A stretch of 64,000 nucleotides of DNA from Microbispora hainanensis (GTDB lineage Bacteria > Actinomycetota > Actinomycetes > Streptosporangiales > Streptosporangiaceae), in contig NZ_VIRM01000014.1 in NCBI RefSeq assembly GCF_006874475.1, forward strand, positions 62,001-126,000, written 5' to 3'. The position numbers and the translations under genes were made by a program. Each line of letters starts with the position of its first letter. Position 1 is the stretch's first letter. A model generated the notes under the pieces. It did no database searches. It was given only the letters and a program-made list of their open reading frames with translations, and was not told the origin of the DNA. Positions 590-53,287 of this stretch are shown piece after piece.

Positions 590-1744
590 ATGACGAACAC
601 CGAAATCCGTCCGTTCCGCATCCAGGTCCCCCAGGCCGGCATCGACGACCTGCGCGACCGGCTCGCCCGCACCCGCTGGGCTCCCCAGTTGCCGGACACC
701 GGCTGGGAGCGCGGCGTGCCGACCGGCTACCTGCGCGATCTGGCGGCGTACTGGGCGGAGAAGTACGACTGGCGGGCGCACGAGGCCGCGATCAACGCCC
801 ATCCGCAGTTCACGACCACGATCGACGGCATCGACCTGCACTTCCTGCACGTCCGCTCGGCGGAGGCGGGCGCCACACCGTTGCTGCTGCTCCACGGCTG
901 GCCCGGTTCGATCGTGGAGTTCCTCGACGTGATCGGCCCGCTCACCGACCCTGCGGCGTACGGCGGGGACCCCGCCGACGCCTTCCACGTGGTGATCCCG
1001 TCGCTTCCCGGGTATGGCTTCTCCGGCCCGCTGCCCGCCGCCGGCTGGACCGACGGACGTGCCGCCGCTGCGCTGGCGGAGCTGATGGACCGGCTCGGCT
1101 ACGACCGGTACGGCGTGCAGGGCGGCGACGTGGGCGCCTTCGTCGCCCCGCTGGTCGGCCGGGCGGCGCCCGACCGGGTCATCGGGGTCCACCTCAACGC
1201 GCTGGTCACCTTCCCGACGGGGGACCCGGCCGACATGGCCGCGCTCACCGAGGCCGAACGGGAGCGGCTGAACCGGATGAAGGACTGGCAGGACCGGTCG
1301 AGCGCGTACATGCAGATCCAGGGCACCAAGCCGCAGACGATCGGGCACGCCCTGCATGACTCCCCGGCCGGCCAGCTCGCCTGGATCGTGGAGAAGTTCC
1401 AGGAGTGGACCGACCCGGCCGCCGCTCTGCCCGAAGACGCCGTGGACCGCGACCGGATCCTCACCGACGTCAGCCTCTACTGGCACACCGGCACCGCGGG
1501 CTCGGCCGCGCACACTTACTTCGAGCGGTTCAACGACCCGTCCATGTGGGCACCGCGCGAGCGGTCGGGCGTGCCCACGGCCGTGGCGGTCTTCCCCACG
1601 GACTTCGCCGTCCGCGGGTTCGCCGAGAAGGTGCACACCATCGCGCGCTGGACCGAGTTCGACCGGGGTGGCCACTTCCCCGCCCTGGAGGCGCCCGGTC
1701 TGCTCGTGGAGGACCTGCGGGAGTTCTTCGGCGGGCGCGCCTGA
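590..1744 (+). CDS. epoxide hydrolase, microsomal-type (EHN + alpha/beta hydrolase)
   Basis: A 384-residue protein, close to the length of bacterial microsomal-type epoxide hydrolases. The N-terminal EHN segment ([20 protein letters not shown] and on) is followed by an alpha/beta-hydrolase fold with the oxyanion motif HGWPGS near residue 103. The nucleophile elbow GGDVG lies near 178, with Asp as expected for an epoxide-opening enzyme, and the catalytic His sits in [10 protein letters not shown] near 360. It would hydrolyse an epoxide to a diol in the cytoplasm through an alkyl-enzyme ester; the natural substrate is unknown. It is divergent from a YafY-type regulator, which probably controls it. 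ATG 590 is chosen because of the -10 seven bases upstream; an in-frame GTG exists at 581. Confidence 0.88.
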
Positions 1745-1797
1745 CCTGCTCCGCCCGGTTTTCCGGGGTCCGTGCAGCGATCCCCGGCCGGCGGGGC

Positions 1798-4038
1798 TCA
1801 GGACTCGGCGACCAGGCCCTCGGGCTCGGTGTCCGTCTCCTCTGCGACCGTCTCGGCGCGCTCGTCCATCTCCGGGCTCACGGCCGTCGGGCTCTCCACC
1901 GGGCGCAGCCACACGACGCCGAGCGGCGGCACGCGCAGCCGGGTCGAGCAGGGCAGCCCGTGCCGCGGCGTCTCCACCGACTCGACCGAGCCCATGTTGC
2001 CGACGCCGCTCCCGGCGTACTCGTACGCGTCGGTGTTGAGGACCTCCTCCCACCGCCCGGGAGTGGGCAGGCCGAGGTGGTAGTCCTCGTGCGGGGCGCC
2101 GGAGAAGTTGGCGACGCAGGCCAGCACCGAGCCGTCCGCGCCGTAGCGCAGGAACGACAGCACGTTGCCCGAGGCGTCGTCGGCGTCGATCCAGCGGAAG
2201 CCCTCGTGGGTGTGGTCGCGCGTGTACAGCGCGGGCGACTCCCGGTAGAGGCGGTTGAGGTCTTTCACCAGGCGGCGTACGCCCTGGTGGTAGTCGAAGT
2301 CGAGCACCCACCAGTCGAGGCCGTTGGCCTCCGACCACTCGGCCCCCTGGCCGAACTCGCCGCCCATGAACAGCAGCTGCTTGCCGGGGTGGGCCCACAT
2401 GAAGCCGTACAGCGCGCGGAGGTTGGCGAAGCGCTGCCACTCGTCGCCCGGCATCTTGCCCAGCAGCGACCCCTTGAGGTGGACGACCTCGTCGTGCGAC
2501 AGCGGCAGCACGAAGTTCTCGGAGAAGGCGTACATCAGGGAGAACGTCATCTGGTGGTGGTGATACTGCCGATAGATCGGCTCGCGGGACATGTAGCTGA
2601 GCGAGTCGTGCATCCAGCCCATGTTCCACTTGAAGCCGAAGCCGAGCCCGCCGAGGTGGACGGGCCGCGATACACCGGGCCAGGCGGTCGACTCCTCCGC
2701 GATCGTCACGATTCCCGGCTCTTCGCGGTAGACGACGGAGTTCATCTCCTTGAGGAACTCGATCGCGTCGAGGTTCTCCCTGCCTCCGTACACGTTGGGC
2801 GTCCACTCGCCCTCGCGCCGGGAGTAGTCGAGGTAGAGCATCGAGGCCACGGCGTCCACCCGCAGGCCGTCGACGTGAAACTCCTTGAGCCAGTAGAGCG
2901 CGTTGGCCACGAGGAAGTTGCGCACCTCGTTGCGGCCGAAGTCGAAGACGTACGTGCCCCAGTCGGGGTGGGTGCCGCGGCCGGGGTCGGCGTGCTCGTA
3001 GAGCGGCGTGCCGTCGAAGCGGGCCAGCGCCCACTCGTCCATGGGGAAGTGCGCGGGCACCCAGTCGACGATCACGCCGACGCCGGCCCGGTGCAGCTCG
3101 TCCACGAGGTGGCGGAAGTCGTCGGGGGAGCCGAACCGTGAGGTGGGGGCGTAGTAGGAGGTCACCTGGTATCCCCACGAGCCGCCGAACGGATGCTCGG
3201 CGACCGGCAGGAACTCCACGTGGGTGAATCCCATGTCCGTGACATACTCGACCAGCTCGCGGGCGAGGTCGCGGTAGGACAGGCCGGGCCGCCAGGAGCC
3301 CAGGTGCACTTCGTAGACGCTCATCGGCTCGGCGAGGGCGTCGCGCGACGACCGCGCGGCCATCCACTCCTCGTCGCGCCACTCATAGTCGGAACTCTCG
3401 ACGATGCTGGCCGTCGCCGGGGGCACCTCGGTGCGGCGGGCCATCGGGTCGGCCTTCTCCCGCCAGATCCCGTCGAGGCCGAGGATCTGGAACTTGTACC
3501 GCGTGCCCTCGCCGATCTCCGGGAGGAACAGCTCCCACACGCCGGAACGGCCGAGGGAGCGCATGGGGTGGGCGGCGCCGTTCCAGTGGTTGAAGTCGCC
3601 GATCACCCGCACACCCTGCGCGTTGGGCGCCCAGACCGAGAAGGCCGTCCCGTCCACGTCCTCGTGACGCATCACGCGCGCCCCGAGCACCTCCCACAGC
3701 CGCTCGTGCCGGCCCTCGCCGATCAGGTGGAGGTCCAGTTCGCCCAGCGTCGGCCAGTGCCGATAGGGATCGTCCGTCTCGTACGGCGGAGCGTCGGGAT
3801 AGGTGATGCGCAGGCGATAGTCGGGGACCTTGTCGACGCCGGGCAGCGTCACCTCGAACACCCCGAACGCGCGATGGCTCATCTCGTGCGCCGACCCGTC
3901 GGCCAGCACCTCGACCTTCTCCGCGAAGGGGCGCAGGGCCCTGATCGTGACGCCTTCGGGCCCGGGATGGGCCCCCAAGATCGAGTGGGGGTCGTGATGC
4001 GCGCCCCCGGCCAGCCGGTCCAAGTCCATGTCGCCCAA
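1798..4038 (-). CDS. glgB: 1,4-alpha-glucan branching enzyme
   Basis: A GH13 branching enzyme of 746 residues. It has an N-terminal CBM48-type region ([15 protein letters not shown], then [20 protein letters not shown]) and a barrel with the four GH13 motifs: DWVPAHFP, the nucleophile region [17 protein letters not shown], the acid in TIAEES, and [10 protein letters not shown]. It introduces alpha-1,6 branches, here most likely into the glucan extended by GlgE from maltose-1-phosphate. It is the last gene of glgE-treS-mak-glgB, 38 bases after mak. The start is uncertain: TTG at 4038 gives MGDMDLDRL, and an in-frame ATG lies at 4029. The last 30 residues are acidic and not conserved. Confidence 0.96.
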
Positions 4039-4076
4039 CCTGCCCTAGATATGCCCCTCCGAACACCCCGATCTTG

Positions 4077-5425
4077 TCAGCGAAAGGCCGCGAGCGGGAT
4101 GGGCAGCCACGAGGGCCGGTTGCGCGCCTCGTAGACGACCTCGTAGACCGCCTTGCTCAGTTCGAGCGCGCGCAGCAGCACCGCGTCGTCGCCGCGGATG
4201 CGCCCGCCGCCCTCGGAGTAGCCGGCCAGGAAGGCGGCCCGGTTGCGCTCGGACCACTCCCTGGCCCGGCACTCCAGCGCCTCGGCGTTGGGATGCCCGG
4301 CCAGCAGGTGCCGCGCGGCGTATTCGAAGGAGCGCAGCATGCCCGCCACGTCGCGCAGCGGCGAGTCGAGCGCCCGCCGCTCGGCCAGCGGCTGGCCCGG
4401 CTCGCCCTCGAAGTCGAGCACCACCCAGTCGGTCATCGTGCGCATGACCTGGCCGAGGTGATAGTCGCCGTGCACGCGCTGCACCGTGATCTCGTGACCG
4501 AGGTCGGCCAGCCGGTCGAACGCCTCGGCGGCCACGGCGGCGTGCTCGCCGAGGGGCGGCACCTCGGCCACCGCCTTGTCGAGGCGGCGGCGGAACCGCT
4601 CGGTCATCCGCTTGATCTCGGTCGGCTCGATCGTTCCCGTGGGGAAGGCGCGCGCGAGCTCGCGGTGCACCTGCGCGGTGGCCACCCCGAGCCGCCGCGC
4701 CTCGGCGGCGAAGTCGCCTCCGGCGTCCTCCGCCGGCATGCCCTCGGGGCACGCGTAGAAGTCGCGCACGCTGGTCAGCGCCATCGACCAGCCCTCGTTG
4801 GCGTTCTGCAGATACTCCTGCATGATCGCCAGGGTGGTGGGCTCGCCCTGGAGCTCGGTCTCGATCCAGCCGTACGGCTTGGCCACGTGGGCCGAGCCCG
4901 CGTCCGCGAGCGCCGTGATGATCTCCAGCTCGGGGTTGACTCCCGGGTTGAGCTGGCGGAACAGCTTGAGGATGTACGTGTCGCCGTACACCAGCGAGGT
5001 GTTCGACTGCTCGGCGGTCAGCACGAGGCTGCGCTGCGAGGTGTCGATCTCCACTCCGTGCGCCGGGTGGAAGCCGAGGCCGTCGAACCGGCGGTCGCCG
5101 GCCATCCCCTCCAGCAGGTGCCCCATCAGGGCGGAGTCGTGCAGCGCGTCGTACACCTCGACCTCGCGGCCGTCGCCCCGGCGGCAGGTGCCGATCCGGA
5201 CGTGACCGAGCCGGTCGGGCAGGTGCTCGCGCAGCCCGACCGGGATCTGGTAGCGCGTGCGGCGCTCCCCCTGCCGCACGCACACGATCAGGTGGACCAG
5301 CGCCGGGTCGCCGGAGGCGATCTCGATCTCGGAGTCGATGGACAGGTCGTCGATGGCGCGCCCCTTGCCGGCGAACCACCGTTGTCCGGTGATCCAGCCG
5401 GCCAGGAGTCCCTGAAGTGAAGTCG

Positions 5426-5429
<4 letters not shown>
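4077..5429 (-). CDS. mak: maltokinase
   Basis: Maltokinase (Mak/Pep2) of 450 residues, an aminoglycoside-phosphotransferase-like kinase. It makes maltose-1-phosphate from maltose and ATP, the donor used by GlgE. Visible marks are the N-terminal [13 protein letters not shown] typical of these enzymes, [13 protein letters not shown] in the small lobe, the catalytic loop [11 protein letters not shown] and the metal-binding VVLDFEGEP. The GTG start at 5429 overlaps the treS stop in a GTGA, with GGAGG immediately upstream, so translation is coupled. The frame is open upstream of this GTG, but that stretch lies inside treS and shows no family similarity. Confidence 0.93.
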
Positions 5430-7177
<1,748 letters not shown>

Positions 7178-43912: not shown

Positions 43913-45526
<1,614 letters not shown>

Positions 45527-45615
45527 TCATGGTGACGGAGTGTGCCCAAGCGGTTTCGCGAAGTGGCCCAGAGGTCGTACCCTCCCATAGTGACCTCTTG
45601 GGGGGTTTCTTACCG

Positions 45616-47760
45616 ATGACGCTTTCACGCGGTCTTATGCCGCTTGCCGGGGTGCCACGTGTCCTCCTGCCCGCCGTCGACCTGGGCGAAATGTCCACGC
45701 CCGTCGACACCCGGGACACCGGACCGCGCCCGGGCTCGCCCCTGTGGGCCTACCTGACGGCGGTCACCGCCGTCGGCGTCACCGCGCTGGTGATCGCGCA
45801 GGTGCGGCTCGGCTTCGGCGAACTGGGCGAGGTGGCCCGCACTCCGCTGTTCTGGATGCTGACGGTCCTGGTCGTGCTGGGCGAGCTGCGCCCGGTCATG
45901 TTCAGCTCCTCGACGCTCGTCGGGGGGACGCCGGCCTCCACGATGTTCACCTTCGCCGTGCTGATGTACCAGGGCCTGCCGACCGCTGCGCTGATGCAGG
46001 CGGTCGCCGTGGTGGTCAGCGGACTGGTGCACCGCAGGGCCTGGCACCGGGTGCTGTTCAACCTCGCCCAGGTGACCCTGGCCTGCGTGGCGGCCGCGGG
46101 GGCCTTCGCCGCGTTCGGCGCGCATGCGGCGCCTCTCACGCCCCGGACGCCCGACGGCGCGGACATCCCGGCCATCGCGGTGGCCGCGTCGGCGTACTTC
46201 GCGGTCCGCGCGATCCTGGTCTGCCAGGCGGTCGCGCTGCACGAGCGCCGGCCGCTGGCCCGGGTGATGAAGGCGTCGATCGGCCCGCAGGCCCTCGTCT
46301 ACGGGGCGCTGCTCGGGCTCGCGCCGCTCGTCGTGGTCGTGATGGCGCACTCCACGGCCCTGGTGCCCCTCTTCGTCGCGCCGCTGGCCGCGGTCTACTT
46401 CACCGCGACGCTCTCGCTGCGCCGCGACCACCAGGCCACCCACGACGGGCTCACCGGCCTGCCGAACCGCAAGATGCTCATCCTGCGCACCGAGGAGGCC
46501 CTGGCCGAGGCGCGCGAGCACGAGCGGGTGGGGCTGCTCCTGCTCGACCTCGACCGCTTCAAGGAGGTCAACGACACGCTGGGCCACCCGGTCGGCGACC
46601 GGCTGCTGCAGATCGTGGCCCACCGGCTCACCCACAGCGTGCGGCCGGGCGACGTGGTCGCCCGGCTCGGCGGCGACGAGTTCGCGGTGCTGCTGCCGTC
46701 GATCAGGGACGCCCACGCGGCCAGGGAGGTCGCCTCGCGGCTGCGGGTCGCGCTGACCGAGCCGGTACGCCTTGAGGGGATGACCTTCGATCTCGACGCG
46801 TCGATCGGCATCGCGCTCTATCCCGACCACGCGCCGGACTTCGAACTGCTCATGCAGCGCTCCGACGTGGCGATGTACCTCGCCAAGGAGGGCCGTACGG
46901 GCGTCGAGTTCTACCTGCCGGGCAAGGACCGCAACTCGCCGGAACGGCTCAGCCTGCTCGGCGACCTGCGCCGGGCGATCGACGCCGACGAGCTGGAGCT
47001 CCACTATCAGCCCAAGGTGAGCCTGGAGGACGGCAGGGTCGAGAGCATCGAGGCGCTGCTGCGCTGGTGGCACCCGGTGCGCGGGCCCATCTCACCCGCC
47101 GAGTTCATCCCGCTGGCCGAGCAGTCCTACCTGATGCGCGAGCTCACCCAGCACGTCATCGGCCACGCGCTGCAGCAGGCGGCCCGCTGGTGGCACGCGG
47201 GAATCGACGTGCCGGTCTCGGTCAACGTGTCGGCCCGCGACCTCCTGGATTCGAGCCTGCCCGAGCAACTGGAGTCCGGGCTGGAGAAGCTGGACCTGCC
47301 TCCCGAGGCCATCCGTCTGGAGGTCACCGAGCGCATCCTGATGACCGATCAGGCCTACAGCGCCGAGACGATCCGCACCCTGGCCGGTCTCGGCATCCAG
47401 CTCGCCCTGGACGACTTCGGCACCGGCTACTCCTCGCTGGTACGGCTCCAGCGGCTCCCGGTCTCCGAGGTCAAGATCGACGCGTCGTTCGTACGGCGGC
47501 TCGGGGAGTCGCCGGACGACGAGCGGATCGTCCGTTCGATCATCGACCTCGTGCGGTCCCTCGGGCTGAGGTCGGTGGCCGAGGGGGTCGAGTCGCCGGA
47601 GGTCGCGACGCTGCTGCGCGAGATGGGCTGCCAGGCGGGTCAGGGCTGGTGGCTGGCCAAGCCCATGCCCGCGAGCGAGGCGACCACGTGGCTGCGCGGC
47701 CGGCTCAGTGCGGCCTTCCGCGACCGCGAGACCGGCGGCGCCCGGCTCGCGCCGCACTGA
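45616..47760 (+). CDS. membrane GGDEF-EAL protein (c-di-GMP turnover)
   Basis: A 714-residue protein. The N-terminal half (residues about 42-265) has five to seven hydrophobic segments with no named sensor. GGDEF follows, with DLDRFKEVNDTLGHPVGDRL and an intact LGGDEFAVLL near 352, then EAL with SIEALLRWWHPVRGPISPAE near 476 and DDFGTGYSSLVRLQRLPVSE. Both motifs are intact, so it may make and/or degrade c-di-GMP. ATG 45616 (MTLSRGLMPLAGV) is chosen because of the TTGGGGGG upstream. A short-repeat cluster directly follows the stop. Confidence 0.93.
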   Translation: MTLSRGLMPLAGVPRVLLPAVDLGEMSTPVDTRDTGPRPGSPLWAYLTAVTAVGVTALVIAQVRLGFGELGEVARTPLFWMLTVLVVLGELRPVMFSSSTLVGGTPASTMFTFAVLMYQGLPTAALMQAVAVVVSGLVHRRAWHRVLFNLAQVTLACVAAAGAFAAFGAHAAPLTPRTPDGADIPAIAVAASAYFAVRAILVCQAVALHERRPLARVMKASIGPQALVYGALLGLAPLVVVVMAHSTALVPLFVAPLAAVYFTATLSLRRDHQATHDGLTGLPNRKMLILRTEEALAEAREHERVGLLLLDLDRFKEVNDTLGHPVGDRLLQIVAHRLTHSVRPGDVVARLGGDEFAVLLPSIRDAHAAREVASRLRVALTEPVRLEGMTFDLDASIGIALYPDHAPDFELLMQRSDVAMYLAKEGRTGVEFYLPGKDRNSPERLSLLGDLRRAIDADELELHYQPKVSLEDGRVESIEALLRWWHPVRGPISPAEFIPLAEQSYLMRELTQHVIGHALQQAARWWHAGIDVPVSVNVSARDLLDSSLPEQLESGLEKLDLPPEAIRLEVTERILMTDQAYSAETIRTLAGLGIQLALDDFGTGYSSLVRLQRLPVSEVKIDASFVRRLGESPDDERIVRSIIDLVRSLGLRSVAEGVESPEVATLLREMGCQAGQGWWLAKPMPASEATTWLRGRLSAAFRDRETGGARLAPH

Positions 47761-47857
47761 GCAGGCCGCACTGGGAGTCCGCACTGGGCAGGCCGCACTG
47801 GTGAGTCCGCACTGGGCAGTCCGCGCTGGGCAGTCCGCGCTGGGCAGTCCGCGCTGA
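47749..47857. repeat. about seven degenerate 14-bp tandem repeats after the GGDEF-EAL stop
   Basis: Units of the form GGCAGTCCGC(A/G)CTG run head to tail; the first, CCGCACTGAG, contains the stop codon. Copies further on carry TGG instead. No gene is seen in 47761-47996 apart from the gatC leader. Confidence 0.75.
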
Positions 47858-47996: not shown

Positions 47997-48296
47997 ATGT
48001 CCGCCATAACCCGCGATGAGGTCGCTCACCTCGCCCGGCTGTCCCGGCTGGCACTGGCCGACGACGAGCTCGACCACTTCGCCGCCCAGCTCGACCAGAT
48101 CGTCGGCGCCGTCGCCCGTGTCGCGGAGGTGGCGGCCGACGACATTCCGCCGTCCTCGCACGCGCTTCCGCTGACCAACGTGTTCCGGCCCGACGTCGTA
48201 CGGCCCGGCCTCACGCCGGAGGGCGCCCTGTCCGGCGCGCCCGCGGTGGAGGACGACCGATTCCGCGTGCCGCGGATCCTCGGGGAGGAAGAATGA
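47997..48296 (+). CDS. gatC: aspartyl/glutamyl-tRNA amidotransferase subunit C
   Basis: GatC, 99 residues, starts [20 protein letters not shown] and ends with the typical RVPRILGEE. It bridges GatA and GatB in the enzyme that converts mischarged Glu-tRNA(Gln) and Asp-tRNA(Asn). The stop overlaps gatA in ATGA. The frame is open further upstream, but the family N-terminus is at 47997. Confidence 0.94.
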
Positions 48297-49783
48297 GCTT
48301 GATTCGCAAGACCGCCGCCGAGCTCGGCGCGCTGGTCGCCTCCCGAGAGGTCACCGCCGTCGAGGTCACCCAGGCCCATCTCGACCGGATCGCCGAGGTC
48401 GACGGCCGGGTCAACGCCTTCCTGCACGTGGACGCCGAGTCCGCGCTGGCGCAGGCGCGCTCGATCGACGAGCGCATCGCCGCCGGTGAGACGCTCGGGC
48501 CGCTGGCCGGGGTGCCGATCGCGCACAAGGACGTGTTCACCACGACCGGCATGCCGACGACCGCCGGCTCGAAGATCCTCGAAGGCTGGCGCCCGCCGTA
48601 CGACGCGACCGTGACCCGCCGCCTGCGCGAGGCCGGTCTGGTGATCCTCGGCAAGACCAACCTGGACGAGTTCGCCATGGGGTCGTCCACGGAGAACTCG
48701 GCGTACGGCCCGACGCACAACCCCTGGGACCTGTCCCGGATCCCCGGCGGTTCTTCCGGAGGTTCGTCGGCCGCGGTGTCCGCCTACGAGGCGCCGCTGT
48801 CCACCGGCACCGACACCGGCGGCTCGATCCGCCAGCCCGCCGCGGTGACCGGCATCGTCGGCATGAAGCCGACGTACGGCGGCTCGTCCCGCTATGGGGT
48901 GATCGCGTTCGCGTCCTCGCTCGACACGCCCGGGCCGTTCGCCCGCAACGTGCTCGACGCGGCGCTGCTGCACGAGGCGTTCTCCGGCCACGACCCGCTC
49001 GACTCGACCTCGATCGACGCGCCGGTCCCGCCGGTCGTCGAGGCCGCGCGGCACGCCGACGTGGCGGGCATGCGGGTCGGTGTGGTCAAGGAGTTCGGCG
49101 GGGAGGGCTACCAGCCCGGCGTCCTCGCCCGGTTCAACGAGGCCGTCGAACTGCTGGAGTCCCTCGGGGCCAAGGTCGTCGAGGTCTCCTGCCCGACCTT
49201 CTCCTACGCGCTGCCCGCGTACTACCTGATCGCGCCGTCGGAGTGCTCGTCCAACCTGGCCCGCTTCGACGCCATGCGATACGGCCTGCGCGTCGGCGAC
49301 GACGGCACCCGCAGCGCGGAGGAGGTCATGGCCCTGACCCGGGCGGCCGGTTTCGGGCCCGAGGTCAAGCGGCGCATCATGCTCGGCACCTACGCCCTGT
49401 CGTCCGGCTACTACGACGCCTACTACGGGCAGGCGCAGAAGGTCCGCACGCTGATCATGCGGGACTTCGAGGCGGCCTTCCAGCAGGTGGACGTGCTGGT
49501 CTCGCCGACCACGCCGACCACTGCGTTCCCGATCGGGGAGCGGGCCGACGACCCGATGGCGATGTACCTCGCCGACCTGTGCACCATCCCGACCAACCTG
49601 GCCGGCAACGCGGCGATCTCGGTGCCGTGCGGCCTGGCCGACGAGGACGGCCTGCCGGTCGGACTGCAGGTCATGGCCCCGGTCCTGGCCGACGACCGCT
49701 GCTACCGGGTCGGCGCCGCCGTGGAGAAGGCCTTCGAGAGCCGGTGGGGCGGCCCGCTGCTGTCCCGCGCGCCCGCGCTCTAG
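48293..49783 (+). CDS. gatA: aspartyl/glutamyl-tRNA amidotransferase subunit A
   Basis: GatA, 496 residues, is the amidase that frees ammonia from glutamine. The Ser-cisSer-Lys machinery is visible in [16 protein letters not shown], in [20 protein letters not shown] and in [14 protein letters not shown]. It overlaps gatC by four bases. In most actinomycetes gatB follows closely, but here two unrelated genes come in between, starting 25 bases later. Confidence 0.96.
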
Positions 49784-49808
49784 TCGCCGAGAGGAGGGGA
49801 ACGGCGGC

Positions 49809-51029
49809 ATGATCACCCGCATCGAGATCGACGGCTTCAAGTCCTTCGAGAACTTCGCGCTCGATTTGCCGCCTTTCCTCGTGCTCATCGGCACCAACGC
49901 CAGCGGCAAGTCGAACCTCCTCGATGCGCTGACGTTCGTCGCGACGGCAGGGACCCGCGGCGTGGACGCCGCAGTGTCGGAAGTACGGGGCGACGCGCGG
50001 GGACTTTTCCGCAAGCGTGGCGACGGCAGCCGCGTCGACCGGATGCGTTTCGCGCTGGAACTCCTTCTCCCGGCGCGAGGCTCTTCGCTGAGCAGCCGCT
50101 GGCGTTGGGAGGTGTGCTTCGCGTGGGCGGTGCCCGAAGGGGAGCTCGAAGGGATCACGATCGAGACGCAGCGACTCGTCTCCTTGTCGTCACCCGGACG
50201 GGTCATCCCCTCGATGGAGCACGAGTGGGTCGTATCGGGCAGAAGATCCGCACTGCAGTACTTTCCCAGCTCTCCGAAGGCGGACTGGCAGGTCGTCAGC
50301 GATATCGAGCACGAGTTGGCGCAGGTCAGATCCCTGCATTTGGAAGCGGGCTCCCTACGTGGGGCGAGTGAGCTCGGCGGACCCCGTCGTATGGACTCCA
50401 CTGGCCGGAACCTGCCGAACTACCTGAGATTTCTGGCGCGTGAGACGGCTTCGGAGAACAGGCCGCTCGGCGTGGTCGGCGAGATCAAGATGCACCTCGT
50501 CGGACTGGTGAGAGAGATCAGCGATTTCGAGATCGTCGAGGACAAGCGCCGCAGGGACGTCAGGCTCGAGTTCGCCTCGCCCTACGACCGGGGGTTGGAC
50601 GCAGAGTTCGCGTCCGACGGAACGCTGCGCATGCTGGCGATCCTGGCCGCGTTGCACGACGACGGAACCGCGGTGATCGAGGAGCCGGAGAACGGCGTCT
50701 TCCCGGAGAGACTCCGTCAGTTGCTCGGTCTCGCCCGGGAGCTGGTCACGGGCGAAGACGAAGCCGTGACGTCCGGCCCGGGCCGGCCTCTGCAACGGCA
50801 GGCCCTGTTCACCAGTCACTCTCCGGTGGTGCTTGACGCGGTACCGCGGGAGAACATCGCCTTCCTCGACATGACGACCATCCTGGAGGGCGCTGTCGCC
50901 AGCCGTGTAAGCCGGGTGCGACGGCTGCGCGAAGATGACGGCGCGGTACGCGGGGACGGCGAGCGATGGCCGCGGGTCACGGACTCCGAGCTCGACAGGT
51001 TCCGGGCCGGGGTGGAGGAACCGGTCTGA
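49809..51029 (+). CDS. OLD/RecF-like AAA ATPase, inserted between gatA and gatB
   Basis: A 406-residue ABC/SMC-type ATPase of the AAA_21/OLD group. MITRIEIDGFKSFENFALDL and Walker A GTNASGKSN (28-36) are at the N-terminus. The signature-like FASDGTLRMLAILAAL, Walker B TAVIEEPENG near 290 and the switch TSHSPVVLD near 334 follow. No TOPRIM domain is fused. Instead a separate TOPRIM-like gene starts at its stop (the ATG overlaps by one base), as in two-gene OLD-like defence systems. GGAGGGG lies upstream of the ATG. Codon use is less GC-biased than in gatA and gatB, which suggests transfer. A defence role is inferred from gene pairing only. Confidence 0.83.
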   Translation: MITRIEIDGFKSFENFALDLPPFLVLIGTNASGKSNLLDALTFVATAGTRGVDAAVSEVRGDARGLFRKRGDGSRVDRMRFALELLLPARGSSLSSRWRWEVCFAWAVPEGELEGITIETQRLVSLSSPGRVIPSMEHEWVVSGRRSALQYFPSSPKADWQVVSDIEHELAQVRSLHLEAGSLRGASELGGPRRMDSTGRNLPNYLRFLARETASENRPLGVVGEIKMHLVGLVREISDFEIVEDKRRRDVRLEFASPYDRGLDAEFASDGTLRMLAILAALHDDGTAVIEEPENGVFPERLRQLLGLARELVTGEDEAVTSGPGRPLQRQALFTSHSPVVLDAVPRENIAFLDMTTILEGAVASRVSRVRRLREDDGAVRGDGERWPRVTDSELDRFRAGVEEPV

Positions 51030-51663
51030 TGCGGAGCCTCAGCTGCGTCCTGATCAGGGAGGGACCGTCGGACGACTGGTTCCTGCCGATCCTGCTGCGC
51101 CGGGCCCTGGAGGACCTCGTGATCGAGTCCTTCCCGGCCTGCAGGGAGGTGCAGGAGGTACGCAGCCTGCCGAAGGCGGGCAACCAAAGTCTGAGCCGGT
51201 GCTCAGAGCCCTGGATCGGGAACGGGGAACGTTCGACGTGGTCCTTTATCACCATGACGGAGCTCCACCGGCCAAGTCGGGTCCTGTGCTGGAACGCATG
51301 CGGCAGACTTGGCAGGCGAGTGACTTCGAGGAGCCGCTGGTGGCCGTTGTGCCGATGAGGGAGACGGAGGCCTGGGTGCTCGCCGACGCGGCGGCCCTCG
51401 TGAGGGTGCTCAACGTGCGTAGGCTTGATCGGTCGGTCGTGACTGGGCCGGAAGTGGAGTCCTGCCGCAACCCGAAGGCGGTTATTGACGCGCTGCTCGC
51501 GGGGGCCGGTCTCAATCCGAACGGGAACGGCGTGCTCCAGAACTTCTATGTGTCGGTGGCGGAGACCGCCGGCATCGCTGAACTGCGGAAGGTGGCCGCC
51601 TTCCAGCAATGGTGGAATGACATGATCGAAGCATTGGAAGGACTGGGTTACCAGCATGGCTGA
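51029..51663 (+). pseudogene. DUF4276-like TOPRIM-fold gene with a one-base frameshift
   Basis: The ATG at 51029 overlaps the ATPase stop. Frame A gives MRSLSCVLIREGPSDDWFLP with the TOPRIM-style Glu of REGxSD, and reads well up to about 51175 (VQEVRSLPKAG). The family-like sequence then continues in another frame: LRALDRERGTFDVVLYHHDG with the second acidic motif, and VPMRETEAWVLADAAALVRV, ending at 51663. Start to stop is 635 bases, one short of a multiple of three, so a single base is missing near the G-run at 51176-51180. Restored, it would be about 211 residues. It could be a real mutation or a sequencing error. Its end overlaps the gatB start by eight bases. Confidence 0.7.
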
Positions 51664-53164
51664 TACCGCGACGCTCATGCCGTACGACGAGGCGCTGGAG
51701 CGCTTCGAGCCGGTGCTGGGGCTGGAGACGCACGTCGAGCTGGGCACCGAATCGAAGATGTTCTGCGGCTGCCCGACGGCCTTCGGCGCGCCGCCGAACA
51801 CGCAGGTCTGCCCGGTGTGCCTGGCGCTGCCCGGCTCGCTGCCGACGGCCAACGAGAAGGCGATCGAGTCGACGATCCGGATCGGCCTCGCGCTCAACTG
51901 CACCATCGCCAAGTGGTGCAGGTTCGCCCGGAAGAACTACTTCTATCCGGACATGCCGAAGAACTACCAGATCAGCCAGTACGACGAGCCGCTGTGCACG
52001 GACGGCTACCTGGACGTCGAGGTGGACGGGAAGATCGTCCGCGTGGAGATCGAGCGGGTGCACCTGGAGGAGGACACCGGCAAGTCCACCCACGTGGGCG
52101 GCGCGACCGGGCGGATCCACGGCGCCGACTACTCGATCGTCGACTACAACCGCGCCGGCATCCCGCTCGTGGAGATCGTGACCAAGCCGATCGCCGGCAC
52201 CGACCGGCTCGCCCCCGAGGTCGCCCGCGCGTACGTCACCGAGCTGCGCGAGGTGATGCGCTCGCTCGGCGTGTCCGACGTGCGGATGGAGCAGGGCTCG
52301 CTGCGCTGCGACGTGAACGTCTCGCTGATGCCGCGCGGCTCGTCGGAGTGGGGCACCCGTACGGAGACCAAGAACGTCAACTCGCTGCGCAGCGTCGAGC
52401 GGGCGGTGCGGGGCGAGATCGAGCGCCAGGCGGCCATCCTCGCCGAGGGCGGCCGGATCGTGCAGGAGACCCGTCACTTCCACGAGGACACCGGCCAGAC
52501 GACCTCCGGGCGGTCGAAGGAGGAGGCGCAGGACTACCGCTACTTCCCCGAGCCCGACCTGCTGCCGATGGCGCCCGACCCGGCCTGGGTCGAGTCGCTG
52601 AAGGCGGCGCTGCCCGAGCTTCCGTCGGCGCGGCGCAAGCGGCTCCAGCAGGAGTGGGGCGTGTCCGACCTGGACATGGCCGCCATGCACAACGCCGACG
52701 CGATCGACCTGGTCGAGGCGACGGTGGCCGCGGGCGCTCCCGCCGCCGACGCGCGCAAGTGGTGGATGGGCGAGCTGGCCCGGCGGGCCAACGAGTCGGC
52801 GACGGCGCTCGCCGACCTGCCGATCACCCCGGCGCAGGTCGCCCGGGTGACCGAGCTGGTCGCCTCCGGTGCGCTGAACGACAAGCTGGCCCGCCAGGTG
52901 CTGGAGGGCGTGCTCGCCGGCGAGGGCGGCCCGGACGAGGTCGTGGCCAAGCGCGGGCTCCAGGTCGTCAGCGACGAGGGTGAGCTCTCGGCGATCATCG
53001 ACCAGGTGCTGGCCGACAACGCCGACGCCGCAGAGAAGGTGCGCGGCGGAAAGATCGCCGCCGTGGGCGCGCTGGTCGGCGGCGTGATGAAGGCCAGCCG
53101 GGGCAAGGCGGACGCGGGCCGGGCCCGCGAGCTGATCCTGGAGAAGCTGGGCGTCCAGGGCTGA
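51656..53164 (+). CDS. gatB: aspartyl/glutamyl-tRNA amidotransferase subunit B
   Basis: GatB, 502 residues, binds the mischarged tRNA and phosphorylates the acyl group. It has [32 protein letters not shown] and [14 protein letters not shown], and a C-terminal YqeY-like tail domain. The ATG at 51656 overlaps the end of the inserted DUF4276-like gene by eight bases; an ATG at 51677 ([10 protein letters not shown]) is an alternative. It is followed by a tandem-repeat block and a strong hairpin. Confidence 0.96.
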
Positions 53165-53287
53165 GCACCCGGTCCTGAGAACCCGTGCCCTGAGAACCCG
53201 CGCCCTGAGAACCCGTGCCCTGAGAACCCGTGCCCTGAGAACCCGTGTCCTGAGAACCCGTGTCCTGAGAACCCGTGTCCTGAGAGC
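53161..53287. repeat. 15-bp tandem repeat block starting at the gatB stop
   Basis: Seven near-identical units CCTGAGAACCCGTGC (53174-53278) and one decayed unit follow an initial copy, CTGAGCACCCGGTC, which contains the gatB stop codon. Units differ only at C/T positions near the end. There are no spacers, so this is not a CRISPR array. Confidence 0.9.

Follow-up and report, generated by a model that had tools for sequence, protein, structure and literature searches.

The described system closest to the gene pair considered here is HEC-01, a PADLOC candidate: its profiles for an ATPase (HEC-01A) and a DUF4276-type partner (HEC-01B) both match, side by side, two genes that lie between gatA and gatB in the window, i.e. 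the whole stretch of 64,000 nucleotides of Microbispora hainanensis DNA that was analysed. The module in the window differs from HEC-01 in that it resides in a housekeeping operon and comes with a variable lobe and with coupling scars. HEC-05 and HEC-06 are described as Hma-embedded (citing Payne et al. 2024, PMC11411939). In the literature searched, outside which most bioRxiv preprints lay, DUF4276 does not occur as a word, and among the papers listed no description was found of HEC-01 itself or of this gat site, nor of the variable lobe and the coupling scars.

With respect to other defence systems, PtuA of Septu and of retrons ranks first (2.2e-13) when the model of the ATPase is compared with known structures by Foldseek. 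However, PtuB is an HNH protein whereas the partner in the window is DUF4276-like, the identity to PtuA amounts to 11-15% (best 50 matches), and Septu was rejected since no HNH family was found on the partner with the Pfam and PADLOC profiles. The ATPase fold is also common to OLD and to GajA of Gabija (6p74, 8x5i), and an ATPase and its partner on one chain can likewise be found in some relatives of the module (L013, see below), but the ATPase in the window has neither a fused TOPRIM nor a helicase partner. In particular, it ends at 406 aa without a C-terminal TOPRIM, which speaks against an OLD nuclease, and the genes downstream of it are the DUF4276 gene and gatB and not a GajB helicase, which speaks against Gabija. 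PARIS (AriA/AriB), to which an earlier note made from the sequence had likened the pair, likewise combines an ATPase of the AAA_21/AAA_15 type with a neighbouring small gene that looks like an effector. This assignment had to be given up: the partner pieces and their intact relatives match DUF4276 and gave no match to DUF4435, and the match of the ATPase to the AriA profile (9e-25) is far weaker than that to HEC-01A (PDLC04184, 5.8e-88), the best family. A search of 148 genomes for DUF4435 proteins gave no match in any of them.

The gene pair between gatA and gatB

The presence of an ATPase and DUF4276 pair between gatA and gatB, as given in the earlier note, was confirmed with agreeing coordinates, and its spacings (25 bases, a one-base overlap and an eight-base overlap) as well as its G/C counts (36 of 60 in the module against 43 of 60 in gatB) are exact. 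The locus consists of the following features:

48293-49783, plus strand: gatA, flanking the module as the upstream gene of the operon
49784-49808, plus strand: spacer of 25 nt with a Shine-Dalgarno-like GGAGGGG
49809-51029, plus strand: HEC-01A-like ATPase of 406 aa, AAA_21/AAA_15, intact, with its ATG at 49809
49890-49913, plus strand: Walker A GTNASGKS (residues 28-35), in invariant alignment columns
49920-50498, plus strand: equivalent of the hypervariable lobe, codons about 38-230, from the diversity profile and the ATPase model
50613-50630, plus strand: signature-like SDGTLR (residues 269-274), from the ATPase alignment
50664-50690, plus strand: Walker B region (residues 286-294), from the ATPase alignment
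51029-51187, plus strand: DUF4276/HEC-01B-like partner, N-terminal piece with the motif REGPSDD
51181-51663, plus strand: C-terminal piece of the DUF4276/HEC-01B-like partner, read in a different frame, with the motifs YHHDG and RETEAW
51656-53164, plus strand: gatB, starting inside the last codons of the partner

The stop of the ATPase and the start of the partner have one base in common (51029), the stop of the partner (51663) and the start of gatB (51656) give an overlap of 8 nt, and the spacer between gatA and the ATPase measures 24-25 nt in all 13 genomes of the genus that carry the module between the two genes. With 0.83 for the ATPase gene and 0.77 for the partner gene, GC3 is lower than in gatA and gatB (0.97 each), which supports the foreign-leaning composition that had been proposed. 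Scanning of positions 49500-51900 revealed no sigma-70-like promoter, where 0.1 would be expected, and a single terminator-like site against an expectation of 0.9, located on the minus strand.

The ATPase carries a Walker A motif (GTNASGKS), a signature (SDGTLR), a Walker B motif (IEEPENG) and a switch (TSHSP), the core residues of which are invariant or nearly so across 32 aligned ATPases. It matches AAA_21 (1.5e-21) and AAA_15 (7.2e-15) in Pfam, and amongst the best 50 Foldseek matches of its model (pLDDT 87) the nearest folds are PtuA, SMC, Rad50, GajA and OLD (E from 2e-13 to 7e-11, query TM about 0.38-0.54). By the profile matches of both of its genes, the pair is HEC-01-like and belongs to a candidate defence family; the Pfam and HEC-01A/B matches thus back the earlier suggestion of a defence-type pair.

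The partner is frameshifted near 51185 in the window, resulting in two pieces in different frames, and is intact in relatives; the earlier note does not list this break among the features seen and hints at it by speaking of a repaired gene. The piece from the window reaches 26.9 bits with Pfam DUF4276, below the cut-off of 30.2, as compared to 33.3 for the intact relative L003, and the HEC-01B profile of PADLOC (PDLC04210) is matched at 1.4e-10 and 8.6e-29 by the two pieces and at 1.1e-40 by L003. No slippery site for programmed frameshifting was seen by eye in the window. Judged from its reading frames, the copy in the window looks half-inactivated, with an intact ATPase and a frameshifted partner, unless the frameshift is an error of the draft assembly.

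The TOPRIM fold has a beta-alpha-beta core with a glutamate at strand 1 and a DxD motif at strand 3. The partner was modelled with a pLDDT of 89.6 as a Rossmann-like protein in which EGxSD follows strand 1 and HxD follows strand 3; this topology and the EGxSD motif would suit a TOPRIM. Foldseek searches of the PDB with this model gave no match at E<=0.001, and an hmmsearch of solved structures with the partner gave six matches (best E 0.24), none of them a TOPRIM by name. Comparison with OLD-like TOPRIMs by hhalign yielded weak values of 18.8% for all partners, 23.6% for those of class A and 2.2% for those of class B (see below for these classes), the controls being 1.8% for the ATPase versus TOPRIM and 99.9% for class A versus class B partners. 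We infer that the partner is a Rossmann-like, possibly TOPRIM-like, putative nuclease. In the partners of a class B subgroup (L048, L054, L038, L057 and L071), at least one of the putative acidic motifs is missing while the frames are open, which argues against one uniform catalytic role. In L013, the ATPase and the partner form one chain of 678 aa (HEC-01A 1.1e-157, HEC-01B 1.4e-46), and this naturally occurring fusion suggests that the two proteins probably act together.

Exchange of modules and the variable lobe of the ATPase

In the genus to which the window belongs, the modules fall into two classes, with class A found in six genomes, including that of the window, and class B in seven. 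Across the two classes the ATPases are 31-34% identical, and the gatA and gatB parts have a nucleotide identity of 89-99% within the genus. When G001 and G012 are compared in steps of 90 nt, the flanks are 94-100% and most of the module 36-64% identical. The first 120 nt of the ATPase gene of G001 are 93-100% identical to those of three class B genomes (67-100% to those of the class A genome G006); being class B-like at its 5' end and class A in the rest, this gene is recombinant. With a simple counting method whose high values are near saturation, ten class A pairs gave a dS of 0.03-0.19 for the gat genes and of 0.23-1.03 for the ATPase, and in the pair G003-G005 the dS of the module (0.17) lies below that of the flanking gat genes (0.24-0.29). 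In addition, in the 13 genomes of the genus the gatB start ATGGCTGA goes with class A and GTGAGCAGC with class B, and therefore the exchanged tract takes in the start of gatB. In G071 (L037, positions 1012-4832), the space between gatA and gatB is taken up by a class B module followed in tandem by a class A module, the ATPase and partner frames of both being open. Taken from sequence comparison, the module appears to be exchanged frequently at a fixed site, in the manner of an immune locus, with its role in defence being putative.

Diversity along the locus was computed in windows of 60 nt. In the seven class B genomes it is about 0.05 (0.005-0.10) in gatA and gatB, rises to 0.25-0.47 at codons 38 to about 217 of the ATPase, is 0.18 up to about codon 237, and from there to the end of the partner lies at 0.02-0.15. 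Between G003 and G007, the identity per window is at least 0.86 except in the variable stretch, where it goes down to 0.48. In class A there is a narrower peak of 0.33-0.40, in the windows that begin at codons 138 and 158, against a higher level throughout the module, so that the sharp lobe pattern is a class B result. As a control, recF of these genomes, which codes for another SMC-like ATPase, has a within-gene mean of 0.113 and a maximum of 0.178; windows upstream of recF reach 0.26 in class B and 0.46 in class A, and high diversity over 60 nt is thus not unique to the module. In the ATPase model the variable stretch folds into a lobe of beta and helical elements that is flanked by the Walker A helix on one side and the signature on the other, and we infer that this lobe may be the sensor of the ATPase.

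We consider it fairly probable that a polymorphic immune cassette of two genes, HEC-01-like and acting by abortive infection, has its fixed place between gatA and gatB and is exchanged there by homologous recombination. The simplest route for such an exchange would be homologous recombination in gatA and gatB and in the conserved ends of the cassette. The ATPase would form a dimer with the lobe between Walker A and signature as its recognition surface, and a phage trigger would lead to the ATP-dependent activation of the DUF4276 partner; the activated partner, as a putative nuclease, would then cut nucleic acid, and the infected cell would stop. Expression from the housekeeping operon might keep the cassette armed, and translational coupling to gatB might shape which deletions survive. 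More tentatively, and by analogy, the locus might be a dedicated polymorphic immune locus in which the recognition lobe is swapped between species by recombination and the motor, the effector and the operon coupling stay fixed. The hsdS specificity domains and polymorphic NLR loci follow a comparable logic; however, the cassette would be anchored in an essential operon by homology and not by a mobile element.

If this were true, a conserved essential operon could serve immune cassettes as the place of their exchange, which would also explain the route of their expression, and the variable lobe of an OLD/PtuA-like ATPase would be named as the likely surface for trigger recognition. The natural series of two main classes, many lobes, fusions, decayed copies and scars lends itself to probing the sensing and action of HEC-01.

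Decay and scars at the gatB junction

All seven class B pairs are intact, as are three of the six class A pairs (G004, G006 and G009). In the remaining class A genomes, the partner is frameshifted (G000, the genome of the window) or shortened in frame (G001), or the ATPase and the partner are fused with loss of the N-terminus of the latter (G008). Since class A is damaged this often, and since G002 has retained a mere remnant of 417 bp, any benefit of the module may be weak or transient.

All 11 short intervals from the survey described below were retrieved. Six of the seven of 101-159 bp between gatA and gatB contain in-frame mini-ORFs of 28-31 codons, found in G070, G113, G177, G139, G159 and G023; these represent three genera, and as four of the six genomes come from one genus they are possibly non-independent. 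The mini-ORFs have an ATPase-like start, partner-like last codons and the same overlap with gatB as the full modules, except in G023, where the mini-ORF ends beside the gatB match. In the short interval of G062 no remnant of the module was seen. Amongst the longer remnants, four of them from the survey below and one from G002, that of G172 is in frame, and those of G132, G153, G002 and G120 are not. Our reading of the short scars is that they may represent deletions under pressure to keep gatB translated, and the longer out-of-frame remnants may be too young to show such a pressure on frame.

Scars that keep the gatB junction would also be left by a selfish, addiction-like or passenger module, in which a toxin-like DUF4276 protein and its ATPase are retained as their deletion harms gatB translation and which has no immune role. 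The damaged partners in the three class A genomes named above fit with such a module, as does the fact that the HEC-01 family is a candidate defence system only. Nevertheless, the module has been lost repeatedly and is distributed patchily, which speaks against addiction, a passenger would not be expected to combine conserved ends with a strongly variable lobe, and the ATPases are under purifying selection (dN/dS 0.13-0.36 within classes), so that this explanation strikes us as unlikely.

Occurrence and origin of the gat location

A match to the ATPase is present in all 15 genomes of the genus: 13 carry the module between gatA and gatB, G002 has the remnant mentioned above, and for G014 the match is known with the gat interval lying outside the data seen. 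Among named relatives, L088 and L091 have ATPases that do not differ from those of G003 and G007. In a survey of Streptosporangiaceae, 146 of 150 genomes searched were matched, and amongst the matches listed 68 intervals had both gat ends readable. Counted by hand, 32 of these 68 gaps are long (about 1.7-3.8 kb), 11 measure about 90-770 bp, and 25 are under about 65 bp or overlapping. By tblastn, all 32 long gaps contain homologues of the ATPase and the partner, as two genes or as one chain; Pfam and PADLOC profiles were run for a few of them. The presence of the module is patchy and it is the least conserved part of the locus, so that the case which the earlier note had named as its refutation, a module in all relatives with housekeeping-type conservation, does not hold.

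In Micromonosporaceae, 25 of 200 genomes were matched, at least 14 of them with a gat-linked module (one of which, in G493, is decayed), and in Streptomycetaceae 15 of 249, at least two of them gat-linked; each group was searched with one query at E<=1e-25, making the 14 and the 2 lower bounds, and the group names were deduced from loci of known name that are nearly identical. When 84,980 species were scanned with one genome each, 22 of 80 homologue loci among the matches listed adjoin gat genes, all 22 being actinobacterial by title and 21 of them lying after gatA; for the other 58, no gat gene is present in the examined stretch, which in some cases is a short contig. The arrangement is real and recurs, with a known family of candidate defence genes at an uncommon location. 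In L124 (Streptomyces sp. Z26, 4501-5796), the remaining one of the 22 loci, and in L023 (G016, 1501-1755), a related ATPase gene lies just downstream of gatB and not between gatA and gatB.

The majority of the ATPases linked to gat belong to one of three clades, namely class A, class B and a third clade of Kitasatospora, genomes with fused or near-fused genes and Micromonosporaceae. Depending on the rows included, the label of gat location changes three to five times on the trees: five times on the tree of 128 rows, on which the placement of L195, L197, L200, L201 and L203 (none of them in the smaller tree) is unreliable, three times on the tree of 70 rows, and four times on another tree. A single gat clade was rejected by the AU test (p = 0.0185) with 70 of the 128 rows, the 58 rows dropped being 23 gat rows (the long-branch L219 and L237 among others), L124 and 34 non-gat rows; this is moderate evidence against a single origin of the gat location. 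Both repeated capture and one capture followed by escapes fit the data.

That the gat location recurs in three families, and that the trees do not unite the ATPases found there in a single clade, is also what might be seen if the module were an accessory or guard of Gat which responds to the state of GatCAB, to tRNA amidation or to stress in translation, its location reflecting its function. However, many close relatives lack the module, the 58 listed loci just mentioned have no gat gene in the stretch examined, and no family match points to tRNA. In addition, in the Chloroflexota MAG locus L085 (2688-9111), a HEC-01-like pair is placed between genes for a type III methyltransferase and a restriction enzyme, which by its gene order is another apparent embedding inside an operon. 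We regard a guard function as highly improbable, and for the monitoring of translation or tRNA charging put forward in the earlier note, as for its link to tRNA amidation, no supporting result was obtained. An ordinary one-off insertion now in decay, with no special site or selection, which the broken copy in the window and the decay series in relatives might suggest, is scarcely tenable, being already contradicted by the interval survey, in which 32 of the 68 intervals readable among the matches listed for Streptosporangiaceae have the same family in the same slot, by its occurrence there in two other families, and by the exchange of classes and the tandem pair in G071.

The mobility of the module assumed in the earlier note holds for recombination at a fixed site, as in the exchanged immune cassette that we favour, but not for a phage carrier, and the plasmid matches are distant. 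Phage records gave no match at 1e-10, and plasmid records gave five, all under 60% identity, with an 11.85-Mb record as the best and two plasmids under 300 kb matching at 25-28%. At 11 non-gat loci, three proteins at two loci, one of them helicase-like, match PADLOC at 1e-10 amongst the 20 neighbours examined; the other nine loci have no PADLOC-matching neighbour in this set, which weighs against the defence reading.

The genome of the window itself has a second, distant pair of an ATPase and a HEC-01B-like gene on another contig (G000:C230:48122-49929, L168), with no gat gene in the adjoining stretch read. In the window, what is presumably a GGDEF/EAL-type two-domain gene, as read from its translation, lies upstream of gatC (45511-47760). 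Also upstream of gatC is a 14-bp repeat in 7.6 copies (47752-47856), and a 15-bp tandem repeat in 8.4 copies (53161-53285) begins at the end of gatB.
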